Source of the DNA: Thiogranum longum
Lineage (GTDB): Bacteria; Pseudomonadota; Gammaproteobacteria; DSM-19610
Length of the DNA: 64,000 bases
Assembly (NCBI RefSeq): GCF_004339085.1
Contig: NZ_SMFX01000001.1
Coordinates: 757,227-821,226 of the forward strand
Direction of reading: 5' to 3'
The translations under genes were made by a program, and so were the position numbers. Within the stretch, counting starts at the first letter, position 1. Every line of letters begins with the position of its first letter. Shown here one piece after another: positions 57,100-64,000 of this stretch. The notes beneath the pieces are model-generated. The model saw nothing but the letters and a program-made list of their open reading frames with translations, did not search any database and was not told the DNA's origin.

Positions 57100-57822
57100 A
57101 TGAGTAATCGAATACAGCTGAGTGATCAAGCAAGGAACGACGCGCTGGTTTTCATGCGTGAGTCCATTCTGTTCCAGAAACTGGATGAAGGGCAACTGGA
57201 TACCATTGTACAAAGTACCCAGGCTGCATCACTGGATGAAGGTCAGGTACTGTTCGAGCAGGAGCGTCCGGCGAGTGAGATTTTTATGCTGGAGTCCGGT
57301 CAGATAAAGCTGGCGCGCCTGTCACCCGAAGGCCATGAGAAGGTGATTGATCTTATTACGCCCGGTAGTACTTTTGCTGAAGCGATTATGTTTTCACTGC
57401 AACCGCTGTACCCGGTAACGGCGACCGCGCTACAGGCCAGCCAGGTACTGTGCTTCGATGCCGGTATATACACCGATATCCTTCACCAGTCGACAGAGGC
57501 CTGTTTTTCCATCATGGCGCAGATGAGTCGCCGGCTGCACTGGCAGATTGCCGAGATCGATCGCCTGACGCTGCACAATGCGACCTTTCGTGTGGTGGCC
57601 TATCTGCTCGACCAGGTGCCCAGTACAGACCGTGGAGCATCGCGTGTTCAGCTGAATATTCCCAAGCACGTTATTGCCTCACGCCTGTCTATAACGCCGG
57701 AAACCCTGTCGCGCACGTTTTCGAAACTGAACCGTGACGGCCTGATTGATATTGATGATAGCGGGATGGTGCTGCGGGATGTTGGCCAGTTGCGGAATTA
57801 TGCCAGGGGAGGGAATGCGTAA
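57100..57822 (+). CDS. Crp/Fnr-family regulator, Dnr-like
   Basis: The 240-residue product has a cyclic-nucleotide-binding-like sensor domain (about residues 22-140) and a C-terminal winged helix-turn-helix. The recognition helix ETLSRTF has the E-xx-SR pattern of FNR-type regulators, which read TTGAT-N4-ATCAA. It lacks the FNR cysteine cluster, so it is not an oxygen-sensing Fe-S protein. That combination, next to nor genes, fits the Dnr group, which senses NO through heme. It is convergent with norD. Confidence 0.85.
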   Translation: MSNRIQLSDQARNDALVFMRESILFQKLDEGQLDTIVQSTQAASLDEGQVLFEQERPASEIFMLESGQIKLARLSPEGHEKVIDLITPGSTFAEAIMFSLQPLYPVTATALQASQVLCFDAGIYTDILHQSTEACFSIMAQMSRRLHWQIAEIDRLTLHNATFRVVAYLLDQVPSTDRGASRVQLNIPKHVIASRLSITPETLSRTFSKLNRDGLIDIDDSGMVLRDVGQLRNYARGGNA

Positions 57823-57828
57823 TTCATG

Positions 57829-59673
57829 CTATTCGCTGGTCAGGCGTGCATACAACAGCGGCAATTTTGACGGAAGTTCGCTGGCATTGCGCACCAGGAT
57901 ATAGGACGCGCTGCCAAACAGGTAAGGCAGGTAATCACCGGCCTTCTCGTCAATGGTGACACAGAAAGGGCGCACGCCACGCTCCAGTGCTTCGTGCACG
58001 GCCTTGCGTGTATCTTCCACGCCATAACGACCCTCATACTTGTCCAGGTCATTGGGTTTGCCATCCGTGAGCAACAGTAACAGCTTTTGCCGGGACGGCT
58101 CCCTGTCTATCAGGTTGGTGGCATGGCGAATGGCGGCACCCATGCGTGTGTAGTAGCCCGGTCGTATGGCCTGTATACGGCCACGAACCTGGTTGTCGTA
58201 GTGCGATGTAAAGTCTTTCAGTACATGGAAGCGGACGTGGTCACGTCGACGCGAGGAGAATCCATACAGGGCAAAGCGGTCACCGGTTGCCTGCAAGGCT
58301 TCGGAAAACAGGAACAGGCTGTCACGGATCACGTCGATGATACGTTGTTTATTATTGACATGTGCATCGGTCGACAGTGACAGGTCGGCGAGCAGCAGGC
58401 AGGAAAGATCGCGCTCGGCATTTTCAAAACGGCGGTAGAGGCTGGCCTCGGTGCTTTTAATGCCCCGCAAGCGGTCTGTTGCATGGTCGATCAGGGCATT
58501 AAGGTCCAGCTCACTGCCGTCGGCCTGGGCATTCAGCCACTGGCGTTTTGGTTTGAAGGCCTCGAATAGCCTGCGCAGGCGTCGTGCCTTGAGCTGGAGG
58601 TGTTGCGGCAGGGGGGATGGCTCCGCGTCACGTGCCTGCATGCGTTGCAGGCGGCAGTGATCCGGTTGCAGTATCTGTTTACGATAGTCCCATTCGGGCA
58701 GGGCAATACCCTCACCGAGGTAAAGATCGTCGTTGTCCTCCGGGGGCAGGTCGAGATCAAAGCGCAGGCGTGAAGCCACACGGCCACGGTCATGCGCTAC
58801 ACTGACCACCTCCATATCTTCCAGAGCCGAACCGGCGTCTTCATCCTCGTTTTCTTCCGTAGTGCGATCGACATTGACAAACTCAGCACGGGTAAACAGG
58901 CTTTCCAGCCGGAACGCCAGCAGGCCGCCTTTACCCTCCGGTGTATCGACACGTTCGCCGCGGCGGCGTTTACCGGAATCGACCTGTTCGCTGTGTTGTT
59001 GCTGTGTATCCTCATCGCTGTTGTCATCTTCCCGGGCCGGCGGAGATCCTGCAGCGGTAAGCGGTGGGTCGGGGTGTAGCCACAGGGGAACCGGCAGTGG
59101 TGAGACGGCCGCAGGAGGAAGTGGTGCGGTAACATCCTGCGGCTGTAGCAGGGCATGCCGGATCGCCCGTTCCTGTTCGGCTTCGTCATTTTTAAGCTTG
59201 CGGGGATCGGGCCGTTGTTCGAGGTGTGCCTCGACCAGTCGCTGGTAACGCTTTCTCAGCCCGGGGTGGGATACCAGCAGTGTGGTACTGGCCGCTGCAT
59301 TTTCCTGTAGCCATTCGCCGTGCTGTTGCGTGCTGCGTGCGGCCAGTGCCGCCAGCCACAGGTACAGCTCGCGATTGAGTGTGCGCTCGGGAAACCAGGC
59401 AATGCGTGCCGGCAGGCGCAGGGTGTCTTCATCGCGCCAGGCCAGTTCAGTGCGGTCGTTACTGCCCGCGATACGGCTGAGCAGGCTTCTGCGTGCGCCG
59501 GTTTCGGTTTGGTTAGCGGTTTCGATACGCAAGCCGCCATCACCGCCCAGCGCCCTGAACAGCATTGCAGCCGGGCGACGGATTTCATCGAGGCTGACAG
59601 CGGCTTGCGGGTATGTTTGCCGCGCCGCGCGGGTAATCATGTTGTGCCACAGCTGGCCGACCCATTCCTCCAT
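57829..59673 (-). CDS. norD: Nitric oxide reductase activation protein NorD
   Basis: NorD is a cytoplasmic VWA protein that works with the NorQ ATPase to activate NO reductase, probably in iron insertion. The 614-residue product (start MEEWVGQLWHNM, five bases after the upstream gene) has a variable acidic middle and a C-terminal VWA domain with the MIDAS motif DLSLST near residue 428, plus LLLLLTDGKPND. A longer in-frame start would overlap the upstream gene by 34 bases and adds unconserved residues. Confidence 0.95.
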   Translation of the reverse strand: MEEWVGQLWHNMITRAARQTYPQAAVSLDEIRRPAAMLFRALGGDGGLRIETANQTETGARRSLLSRIAGSNDRTELAWRDEDTLRLPARIAWFPERTLNRELYLWLAALAARSTQQHGEWLQENAAASTTLLVSHPGLRKRYQRLVEAHLEQRPDPRKLKNDEAEQERAIRHALLQPQDVTAPLPPAAVSPLPVPLWLHPDPPLTAAGSPPAREDDNSDEDTQQQHSEQVDSGKRRRGERVDTPEGKGGLLAFRLESLFTRAEFVNVDRTTEENEDEDAGSALEDMEVVSVAHDRGRVASRLRFDLDLPPEDNDDLYLGEGIALPEWDYRKQILQPDHCRLQRMQARDAEPSPLPQHLQLKARRLRRLFEAFKPKRQWLNAQADGSELDLNALIDHATDRLRGIKSTEASLYRRFENAERDLSCLLLADLSLSTDAHVNNKQRIIDVIRDSLFLFSEALQATGDRFALYGFSSRRRDHVRFHVLKDFTSHYDNQVRGRIQAIRPGYYTRMGAAIRHATNLIDREPSRQKLLLLLTDGKPNDLDKYEGRYGVEDTRKAVHEALERGVRPFCVTIDEKAGDYLPYLFGSASYILVRNASELPSKLPLLYARLTSE

Positions 59674-59678
59674 CGCGT

Positions 59679-60635
59679 TCAGCCGCCGTCCGTTGGTACT
59701 TTGGGGAAGCAACTGGCCGGCACATCGGGACGACGCCCGAAGTCACGCTCGGAAACGTCCAGCGCACACTGGCCGTCCAGCATGGTCAGCAGGCCAGGTT
59801 TCCCCTTTGGCAGGTTGACCCGCTCACAGGCCTGTACGCACTGCTGGCACTGGGTGCAGGTAAACATTTTTCGTTTGATCTGGCGTGGTTGCAGGCGCAT
59901 CGGGCAGGCATGCTCACAGGAAGCGTCGCAGCTCGCGCAGTCCGCGGCACGGGCGCGGTTAAAGCCGACCACCAGAGCTTTGTGGTTGGCCATCCACACC
60001 AGGCTCTGGAACAGGCCCACGGCGCAACCGTAGCGGCAGAACAGGTGGCGGGCAAAACTGAATTCAATCGTCAGCAGCAAGGTGGCAGCCGTGATAAAAA
60101 TAAACTGGTTGCGGGTCAGTTCACCGCGTACCAGATTCCCCCAGACTTCGTCCGGTGGCAGCAGGTATGTCAGAAAAGTCACCGCCCACAGTAACGAGAA
60201 GCCAGCGATCGCCAGCATAACCGCTACCCATGCCGTTTTACGCGGGTGAATTTCCGTACCATCCCGTTGCACCTCCGGCAACGGCTCGCGCTGCCACAGG
60301 GTCACTTTTCCGCTGGCACGTCGCATCAGGCTGTTAATGGCCTCGACCACGGAGAAGTGCGGGCATAGCCAGCCACAATAGAGTCGCCCGTAACGCCACG
60401 ACAGCCACAGGCCGAAACCGATCAGGGTCAGCAGTGGTACGAAGACACGCAATACAAGATTGACACTGGCCTGCACGGTGCCGGCATCATGCACGCCGAG
60501 TGTCCAGGGCATACCGAGGAAAATAAAGTGCCCCTGGTAGAGGTCCAGGCGAAAAAGATCCAGCGGTGGTGCCAGCACAAACAGGGCAAAGAAGGCGCTG
60601 CGCCAGAACAGCCTTTGTCGTTGTGTGCGGTTCAT
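59679..60635 (-). CDS. 4Fe-4S polyferredoxin, CcoG/NapH-like membrane protein
   Basis: A 318-residue protein with about five membrane helices and several cysteine motifs: CGWLCPHF (C87, C91), CRYGC (C200, C204) and a cytoplasmic ferredoxin region with C233, C236, C240, C244 and C260, C263, C266, C270. The last eight would hold two [4Fe-4S] clusters. The layout resembles CcoG/RdxA and NapH, which pass electrons or help copper/heme centres. Its place between norQ and norD suggests a role in NO reductase assembly or electron supply; this is inference. It overlaps the preceding gene by four bases. Confidence 0.88.
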   Translation of the reverse strand: MNRTQRQRLFWRSAFFALFVLAPPLDLFRLDLYQGHFIFLGMPWTLGVHDAGTVQASVNLVLRVFVPLLTLIGFGLWLSWRYGRLYCGWLCPHFSVVEAINSLMRRASGKVTLWQREPLPEVQRDGTEIHPRKTAWVAVMLAIAGFSLLWAVTFLTYLLPPDEVWGNLVRGELTRNQFIFITAATLLLTIEFSFARHLFCRYGCAVGLFQSLVWMANHKALVVGFNRARAADCASCDASCEHACPMRLQPRQIKRKMFTCTQCQQCVQACERVNLPKGKPGLLTMLDGQCALDVSERDFGRRPDVPASCFPKVPTDGG

Positions 60636-61012
60636 GCGCGGAAAAACCGGCCAATCAGCGGGTAGACATAGTGCTCGCCGGCCATGGCCTTCACCAGGCC
60701 CAGTACCCCCATGAAAATGAGGCTGCTGTGAATGAAAGTGAAATACAGCACGATAGTCATCAGGGTGTATCCCGACTCCATACCCCCCGTGTACAGGAAA
60801 ATACCAAAAGCGAGAATAATCAATGCCCCGCCTGTAACACTGACGCCAACGGTCTGTGACAGGTGGTTCACGGCCAGTGCATCGGCCTTGCCGCGGTTAA
60901 GCCAGTAAAGGCCAAGCAGCAGGAAAAACGCCAGTCCGGGTGCCAGCATCAGGTTGACGAGGTACAAGGCCTCGGCCTGTATCGCCAGTGATTTCCCGCG
61001 GTTGCTGTCCAC
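60632..61012 (-). CDS. Four-helix membrane protein, function unknown
   Basis: The 126-residue product (GTG start, one base after norQ) has about four hydrophobic helices. I do not recognise a named family; YLVNLMLAPGLAFFLLLGLYWLN and the C-terminal GEHYVYPLIGRFF are the most distinctive segments. No metal-binding motif is obvious. It lies between norQ and the polyferredoxin gene, with tight spacing and a four-base overlap, so it is very likely part of the nor transcript. Confidence 0.8.
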   Translation of the reverse strand: MDSNRGKSLAIQAEALYLVNLMLAPGLAFFLLLGLYWLNRGKADALAVNHLSQTVGVSVTGGALIILAFGIFLYTGGMESGYTLMTIVLYFTFIHSSLIFMGVLGLVKAMAGEHYVYPLIGRFFRA

Positions 61013-61013
61013 G

Positions 61014-61829
61014 TCAGTCTCCGAAACTGGCCTGTACCACATCCATCAGAGCTTCTACGGTGGCCTCGTCATCGGTGAGCGGTTCGATGAGGGCGGCGCG
61101 GCAGGCTTCCGTGGCTTCAAAACCGTCTCGTATCAGCTGTGCGGTATAGATCAGCAGGCGGGTAGAGGCTGATTCCTCGATATCGTGGTCTTTCAGGGCG
61201 CGCAGGCCGTGGGCGAGCTCGACCAGGCGCCTGGCAAGTTCCGGCCCGATACCGGTTTCACGCACCACGATCTCCTGCTCGGTTTGCGCGTCCGGGAAGT
61301 CGAAACGTGCAGAGACAAAGCGCTGGCGGGTGGATGGTTTCATACCCTTGAGCATGTTCTGGTAGCCGGGATTGTAGGAAACCACCAGCATGAACTCCGG
61401 GGGTGCGTGCAGCGTTTCACCGGTACGCTCGATAGGCAGGATGCGCCGGTTATCCGAGAGCGGGTGCAATACGACAGTTGTGTCCTTGCGCGCCTCGACA
61501 ACCTCGTCGAGATAGCAGATGGCTCCTTCACGCACGGCGCGGGTCAACGGGCCGTCATTCCAGTAGGTGGAACCGTCGCCAATCAGGTGGCGTCCGACCA
61601 GGTCCGCCGCGGTCAGGTCATCATGGCATGCAACCGTGTATAACGGACGCCCCAGTCGAGCCGCCATGTGCTCGACAAACCGTGTCTTGCCACAACCGGT
61701 CGGCCCCTTGAGCAGCATCGGCAGCTGGTTGCGCCAGGCGTAGCTAAACAGTTCCACCTCGCGATTCTGTGGCTGGTAGAAAGGCAGCTCCTCGCCAGAG
61801 GCCGGAAATTGAGTCACTTCGGTTACCAT
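61014..61829 (-). CDS. norQ: AAA ATPase NorQ (CbbQ/NirQ/NorQ family)
   Basis: NorQ is a MoxR-type AAA+ ATPase that works with NorD to activate NO reductase. The 271-residue product has Walker A GPTGCGKT at residues 42-49, Walker B ICYLDEVVEA near 112 and the VVSYNPGYQNMLKGMKPSTR segment, typical of the CbbQ/NirQ group. It starts one base after norF. Confidence 0.96.
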   Translation of the reverse strand: MVTEVTQFPASGEELPFYQPQNREVELFSYAWRNQLPMLLKGPTGCGKTRFVEHMAARLGRPLYTVACHDDLTAADLVGRHLIGDGSTYWNDGPLTRAVREGAICYLDEVVEARKDTTVVLHPLSDNRRILPIERTGETLHAPPEFMLVVSYNPGYQNMLKGMKPSTRQRFVSARFDFPDAQTEQEIVVRETGIGPELARRLVELAHGLRALKDHDIEESASTRLLIYTAQLIRDGFEATEACRAALIEPLTDDEATVEALMDVVQASFGD

Positions 61830-61830
61830 G

Positions 61831-62097
61831 TCAGCTTTCTCCCAGGGTAAAGGCTACACCGATCAACGTTACCACGACCAGCAGCCAGCCCGTTACGATC
61901 CAGCGCCAGGGGTTGCGTACGTCCCTCAGGCCCATAAAATGATCTGCAATCAACTGTCCTTTCACGACCACCGACAGCAGCAGTCCGGTAATCACCAGTC
62001 GACCACCCAGGCCGGCTCGTCCTGCGGCATAGGTCACCAGCGTTAGCGCCACCAGGATCAGCCATACCTGCAATCCCTTGTAAGCTATCCTGTCCAT
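61831..62097 (-). CDS. norF: NorF / cytochrome c oxidase subunit IV-like protein
   Basis: The 88-residue product has three membrane helices with the layout of the COX4/NorF group (VVVKGQLIADHFMGLRD in the middle). Such proteins accompany NorE in nor clusters and affect NO reductase activity. I chose the ATG at 62097 (MDRIAYKG), because the in-frame upstream residues overlap norE. Confidence 0.85.
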   Translation of the reverse strand: MDRIAYKGLQVWLILVALTLVTYAAGRAGLGGRLVITGLLLSVVVKGQLIADHFMGLRDVRNPWRWIVTGWLLVVVTLIGVAFTLGES

Positions 62098-62098
62098 T

Positions 62099-62688
62099 TC
62101 AGTGCAGGACATAGACCAGTGGAAACAGCACAATCCACACCAGGTCTACCATGTGCCAGTAGGATGCGCCCGTCTCGACACCGGTGTGTTGCTGCGCGCT
62201 GTAGTCGCCCCGGTAGGCTTTCACGGCGACCACTGACAGAATGACCATTCCCATTAACACGTGCATGAAATGAAAGAAGGTCAGTGACAGGTAGAACATG
62301 TAGAAGGTGTTGGTGCTGAGTGTCACGCCTTCTGCCTGTTTGGCGGAAAATTCGGCCAGTTTCAGGAAAACAAATACGCTCCCACTGAGTATAGCCAGTG
62401 TTAGCCACAGGCTGCAGCGACGTGCTGCGTTACGGCGTATGGCATTGACCGCCATTACCACAAAGTAACTGGAGGTGATCAGTACCAGGGTGTTAATAGC
62501 ACCGCTTTCACGATCCAGCGTCTGCTGAAAGGTATTGAAGAGTTCGACATGCCGCGCACGTGTGAAAGCATAGGCCAGAAAAAAAACGCCGAACACCAGC
62601 AGTTCGGCGTAGATAAATATCCAGATCGCGAAATCACCCGGCAGACTGCTTTTTTCCCGAACAGCCGGGTGACTGGCGATCGCTTCCA

Positions 62689-62689
<1 letters not shown>
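62099..62689 (-). CDS. norE: NorE / cytochrome c oxidase subunit III-like protein
   Basis: The 196-residue product has five membrane helices and resembles subunit III of heme-copper oxidases (DFAIWIFIYAELLVFG at the start, FFHFMHVLMGM later). In nor clusters this protein, NorE, is an accessory to NO reductase. The ATG overlaps the norB stop by one base and norF follows directly. Confidence 0.93.

Positions 62690-64000
<1,311 letters not shown>

Follow-up and report, generated by a model that had tools for sequence, protein, structure and literature searches.

A CcoG-like polyferredoxin beside norQD is tied to a single clade of cytochrome c-dependent NO reductases and may take part in FeB maturation

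The operon of the cytochrome c-dependent NO reductase (cNOR) is named norCBQDEF in the literature (PMC9976466), and NorQ and NorD are essential for the insertion of FeB into the enzyme (PMC9976466, PMC13036017). In the window, the 64,000-nucleotide stretch of the Thiogranum longum genome analysed here, two further genes stand between norQ and norD, one encoding a 318-aa polyferredoxin (PF) and the other a 126-aa membrane protein (TM). Do these genes belong to the NO reductase system and, if so, what might they contribute to it? The cluster reads norC-norB-norE-norF-norQ-TM-PF-norD on the minus strand, with norC just past the window end, beyond norB, on the same 2.92-Mb chromosome. The nearest named relatives suggest a Thiohalobacter-like gammaproteobacterium. 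The features within the window are:

62689..64000, minus strand: norB, truncated by the window end (COX1 Pfam, 246.9 bits)
62099..62689, minus strand: norE, COX3-like (Pfam COX3, 8.5e-16)
61831..62097, minus strand: norF, COX4_pro-like (Pfam COX4_pro, 7.3e-16)
61014..61829, minus strand: norQ, MoxR AAA+ ATPase (AAA_5, 1.5e-38; CbbQ_C, 3e-32)
60632..61012, minus strand: TM, 126 aa with four predicted helices and a GTG start, a distant DUF4870/Tic20-like relative
59679..60635, minus strand: PF, 318-aa CcoG-like polyferredoxin with four transmembrane helices and twelve invariant cysteines
57829..59673, minus strand: norD, VWA-domain partner of NorQ (Pfam VWA, 1.6e-9), ATG start at 59673
57100..57822, plus strand: Crp/Fnr-family regulator, DNR-like (Pfam cNMP_binding and HTH_Crp_2), convergent with norD

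The initial annotation had described two genes between norQ and norD, tightly spaced with the nor genes, and both open reading frames were recovered there: norQ and TM are separated by 1 nt (TGA-C-GTG), the TM stop overlaps the PF start at 60635 by 4 nt (ATGA), and 5 nt lie between the PF stop and the norD ATG. The marks of a cNOR operon were all found, namely the haem c site of NorC (CIGCH, a CxxCH motif), the FeB ligand motifs HLWVEG (H200, E204) and GTGHH (H251, H252) in the full 466-aa NorB, the CbbQ_C domain of NorQ and the VWA domain of NorD, and given the intact NorC and NorB motifs the cNOR of the window looks normal. A perfect FNR/DNR palindrome, TTGATATACATCAA, lies ~60 nt upstream of norC (L017:9827-9840, around position 64600 in window numbering); it is the sole exact match within 19 kb and counts in favour of the reading of PF as a cNOR accessory factor. 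A one-mismatch copy of the palindrome occurs at L017:17026-17039.

PF, labelled only "4Fe-4S binding protein" in RefSeq, contains the twelve motif cysteines initially ascribed to it (C87, C91, C200, C204, C233, C236, C240, C244, C260, C263, C266 and C270), arranged as follows:

60363..60377, minus strand: site 1, C87-GWL-C91, then P92-H93; H93 is invariant in PF and Gln in CcoG
60024..60038, minus strand: site 2, C200-RYG-C204, with Gly/Ala where most CcoG have Met
59904..59939, minus strand: first ferredoxin motif, CxxCxxxCxxxCP (C233, C236, C240, C244), one residue longer than that of CcoG
59826..59858, minus strand: second ferredoxin motif, CxxCxxCxxxC (C260, C263, C266, C270)

All twelve, together with H93 and H197, were invariant in an alignment of 76 diverse PF sequences, and the four motifs were kept in 128 of 131 PF members. 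Like CcoG/RdxA/FixG (TIGR02745), PF has CGWxCP and RHxxCRxxC sites where the membrane meets the cytosol, a pair of ferredoxin-type motifs and a gene position adjoining an enzyme of the haem-copper oxidase family and metal-insertion genes; with NapH/MauN (TIGR02163) and NosR it shares membrane helices bearing CX3C motifs, followed by ferredoxin motifs. The original description of PF as CcoG/NapH-like thus holds at the level of the superfamily but not of membership, the scores being far under the cut-offs of both families (51.5 bits, partial, against 316.7 for CcoG, and 33.1 against 213 for NapH/MauN). NosR gave 16.9 bits of 1000, through its C-terminal part only.

The differences from CcoG are of length and of motif. 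PF has 318 aa, compared with 434-537 in CcoG, stops ~50 residues past the last ferredoxin cysteine and lacks the C-terminal periplasmic Ig-like domain of CcoG. The first CX3C runs into CPH in 76 of 76 PF sequences and into CPQ in the 19 CcoG compared. At the second site PF has CR[YF][GA]C in place of CR[YF]MC, with Gly/Ala in 75 of the 76, and does not match the CcoG-type pattern RHxxCRxMC, while its first ferredoxin motif is CxxCxxxCxxxCP rather than CxxCxxCxxxC. Unlike CcoG, PF is linked to cNOR, an FeB enzyme. Compared with NapH and NosR, it has no flavin domain, no NapG partner and no proline at its second CX3C, and neither the periplasmic flavin-binding domain nor the full length (~680 aa) of NosR; no NapG, NapC-like, flavin or other periplasmic redox partner was found in the window cluster. 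A profile built from 14 PF sequences separated the family cleanly in 204 gammaproteobacterial genomes: full-length PF scored 400-610 bits and broken copies lower, whereas non-PF matches, CcoG of 434-537 aa and a few others, reached at most 99 bits. True CcoG proteins score 80-105 bits against the PF profile. In a maximum-likelihood tree the 76 PF formed one group apart from the 19 CcoG and the NapH-like proteins (94/98 support), although branches are long and the deep order is uncertain. Judged by sequence, PF forms a clade of its own beside CcoG.

In the AlphaFold2 model of PF (pLDDT 86), four long hydrophobic helices are followed by a ferredoxin region at the C-terminus; the model is weakest at the ferredoxin domain, with residues 248-259 below pLDDT 50. 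Mean counts of Lys plus Arg were 3.2 at the N-terminus, 0.9 in loop 33-56, 3.8 plus 4.8 in residues 80-134, 0.3 in loop 157-174, and 2.7 and 16 in the C-terminal part. By the positive-inside rule these counts place both ends and all twelve cysteines, those of both CX3C sites and both ferredoxin motifs, on the predicted cytosolic side. Foldseek with the model gave no significant structural match, and PDB sequence searches with the PF and TM profiles gave no match.

TM was confirmed as the four-helix protein of 126 residues first described, with a high-confidence AlphaFold2 model (pLDDT 92, pTM 0.85). Its nearly invariant residues are E14, N20, P25, H50, Q53 and Y90. A weak match to the Tic20-like DUF4870 (PF09685) was obtained for 28 of 66 TM homologues (best E 2.2e-7), and the window protein itself scored 14.6 bits, under the gathering score of 25. 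Foldseek with the TM model found no significant match; among the matches listed, the solved structure with the top TM-score was a chain of the Arabidopsis TIC complex (E 2.3, not significant). Some TM homologues lie away from nor genes: one upstream of mraZ-like cell-division genes (G135, one of the loci L194-L196), and the others of these loci near aromatic amino-acid genes (G106) and beside a threonine-synthase-like gene (G213).

We then asked how far the two genes accompany cNOR in other genomes. Our class sample of 204 gammaproteobacterial genomes comprises 39 with cNOR of this clade and 165 without cNOR. PF was found in 29 genomes spanning 25 families, all 29 among the 39 with cNOR, against 0 of the 165 cNOR-negative genomes (Fisher P ~5e-27, relatedness ignored; absences are perhaps slightly overcounted, as the search scored only some first-look candidates). 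TM was found in 25 genomes, 24 with cNOR and 1 without (Fisher P ~5e-20, relatedness likewise ignored). Co-occurrence with nor genes elsewhere, proposed as the check on the initial annotation, is thus seen in 29 of 29 genomes for PF and in 24 of 25 for TM. PF adjoins norB or norQ in 26 of its 29 genomes, and in the other three PF and the nor genes are on separate contigs of draft assemblies. Ten cNOR genomes lacked PF, and stayed negative when the search was repeated with the protein. In a phylum sample of 377 genomes, PF occurred in 12, all of them with cNOR and all nor-linked; it was present in 12 of 23 genomes with a near norB clade (at least 690 bits) and in 0 of 25 with a more distant norB type. 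PF is confined to a single norB clade. Paracoccus-type clusters lack it, and the Paracoccus norCBQDEF operon that has been studied has neither PF nor TM; among Pseudomonadota, many sulfur oxidisers and denitrifiers carry PF. Genome context gives the link of PF to the nor system good support.

The idea that the two genes form a single module fared less well. Both belong to the nor system by co-occurrence, but within the 39 cNOR genomes PF and TM were found together in 20, PF only in 9, TM only in 4 and neither in 6, an association with P = 0.11. A congener of the window genome (G016) has TM and no PF. PF and TM thus frequently occur without each other and do not form an obligate pair, and a strict two-protein module was rejected for that reason. 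In one nor cluster (L181:3573-6548) two TM copies follow norB and norQ, respectively, and the same cluster holds a second norE/norF-like pair and no PF.

PF stays in the cluster despite reordering, and the arrangements norQ-PF-norD, norB-PF-norE, PF-norQ and norD-PF were all observed. The order is norC-norB-PF-norE-norF-norQ-norD in Amphritea, norC-norB-norQ-PF-norD in Sphaerotilus and norCB...PF-NnrS in Thiothrix; the PF-bearing clusters of these three (L278, L279, L280) are on plasmids. PF is not always beside nor, as a sub-clade from Thiodiazotropha, Sedimenticola and Thiolapillus is standalone; being nested within nor-linked PF, it has most likely moved out of the nor cluster. We checked 23 PF genomes, mostly of the standalone sub-clade plus two Thiothrix, for norB and norD. 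norB was found in 16, and six of the other seven kept a true norD; one PF genome, a 2.7-Mb MAG, yielded neither. Two inspected Candidatus Thiodiazotropha genomes (G225 and G227; L225 and L226) have norE-norF-norQ(-TM)-norD with no norCB found, which reflects either assembly gaps or maturation genes retained without the enzyme. That norD, with norE, norF and norQ, is kept where norCB was not found indicates that PF follows the maturation genes.

Two Thiodiazotropha genomes (G233:C8, G234:C15) each have two norB copies ~24 kb apart with equal scores, and a Thiotrichaceae MAG carries two different PF genes in tandem (L029:7018-8954). A Thiodiazotropha locus (L227:7981-9393) with haem A synthase and Sco-like genes nearby encodes a divergent haem-copper oxidase subunit I, which scores ~47 bits to COX1 and matches nothing in NCBIfam.

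What, then, might PF do? CcoG, a cytosol-facing [4Fe-4S] metal reductase of the membrane with two metal sites, supports CuB assembly of the cbb3 oxidase, and the purified protein reduces Cu(II), not Fe(III) (PMC7558416). PF and TM share an operon with the FeB-insertion chaperones NorQ and NorD, whose genes flank them. The CcoG-type scaffold, the tie to norQD, the cytosolic cysteines and the altered metal sites together make a metal-redox or supply factor the simplest reading, and we see about an even chance that PF is an accessory factor of one cNOR clade, acting with NorQD in cytosol-side metal redox or supply for FeB. From analogy we infer the cluster content, metal, redox activity and NorQD contact of PF. 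Working alongside NorQD at the cytosolic membrane face, it would take electrons from a cytosolic donor and pass them through its two putative [4Fe-4S] clusters to a metal at the two CX3C sites of the membrane interface. It would keep or make that metal, most likely Fe(II), reduced and deliver it to the NorQD-NorB complex so that FeB can be inserted, and so would be for FeB the counterpart of CcoG for CuB of the homologous cbb3 oxidase. TM would be another membrane accessory, in part independent of PF, perhaps a subunit for docking or assembly. A sharper version, in which PF is a dedicated membrane ferric reductase or Fe(II) donor that arose from the CcoG scaffold through altered metal specificity and TM is a new assembly subunit, we put forward only tentatively, as somewhat less probable. 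The cNOR of P. denitrificans acquires FeB in E. coli from an operon with neither PF nor TM (PMC9976466). As this enzyme works without PF and ten cNOR genomes lack it, PF is not generally required, and may be most important under iron scarcity or in fluctuating redox conditions.

Three other readings were weighed against this one. Membership in the NapH/NosR/CcoG superfamily, two predicted Fe-S clusters and an operon location would also suit an electron-transfer subunit that feeds NO reductase from quinol or from a donor in the cytosol, like NapH and NosR for their enzymes. All PF cysteines are predicted to be cytosolic, however, the cluster has no NapG-, NapC- or flavin-domain partner, many close cNORs do without PF, and NorC keeps its CxxCH haem site, so that the normal periplasmic donor route is intact; we regard this role as unlikely. 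Of the two roles that the initial annotation had offered, maturation or electron transfer, maturation fits better. PF could instead be a CcoG-like cupric reductase for the copper sites of NosZ or cbb3 that is merely located in the nor cluster, CcoG being its nearest characterised family and one sub-clade being standalone. PF tracks cNOR and norQD closely, however, and is missing from all 165 cNOR-negative genomes of the class; the second CX3C site, moreover, has Gly/Ala for the Met common in CcoG, and CcoG itself occurs separately in the class, which leaves this reading improbable.

Fe-S proteins are sensitive to NO, and PF might protect or repair NOR maturation under nitric oxide or oxygen rather than supply metal, a role to which we assign a similarly low probability. 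An example would be a redox or NO-sensing Fe-S protein by which the NorB thiols or iron are kept reduced. The neighbouring NnrS gene in Thiothrix and the dispensability of PF in some lineages would fit such protection, but PF lacks sensor and regulatory domains, a Crp/Fnr regulator is already present in the operon, and the conserved CX3C-His sites suggest metal handling. A role in defence was dropped, PADLOC having given no match.

PF appears undescribed. A literature search covering few subscription papers found no description of PF or TM in a nor cluster. PF may have gone without one because it is absent from Paracoccus-type clusters, where cNOR maturation was studied. In an NO-enrichment paper (Nat Microbiol; PMC10390337), the locus tags listed for both organisms would accommodate one unnamed gene between norQ and norD. 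Term searches of PMC9976466 and PMC13036017 returned no passage on the source or redox state of the iron of NorQD. As a conserved membrane Fe-S protein specific to cNOR and encoded next to norQD, PF is a concrete candidate that opens this question to testing. If PF is indeed a ferric reductase or Fe(II) donor for FeB, the maturation of FeB would gain its first known iron-redox step. It would also carry over to FeB an idea drawn from CcoG and CuB, namely that the catalytic metal of a haem-copper oxidase has a reductase of its own.
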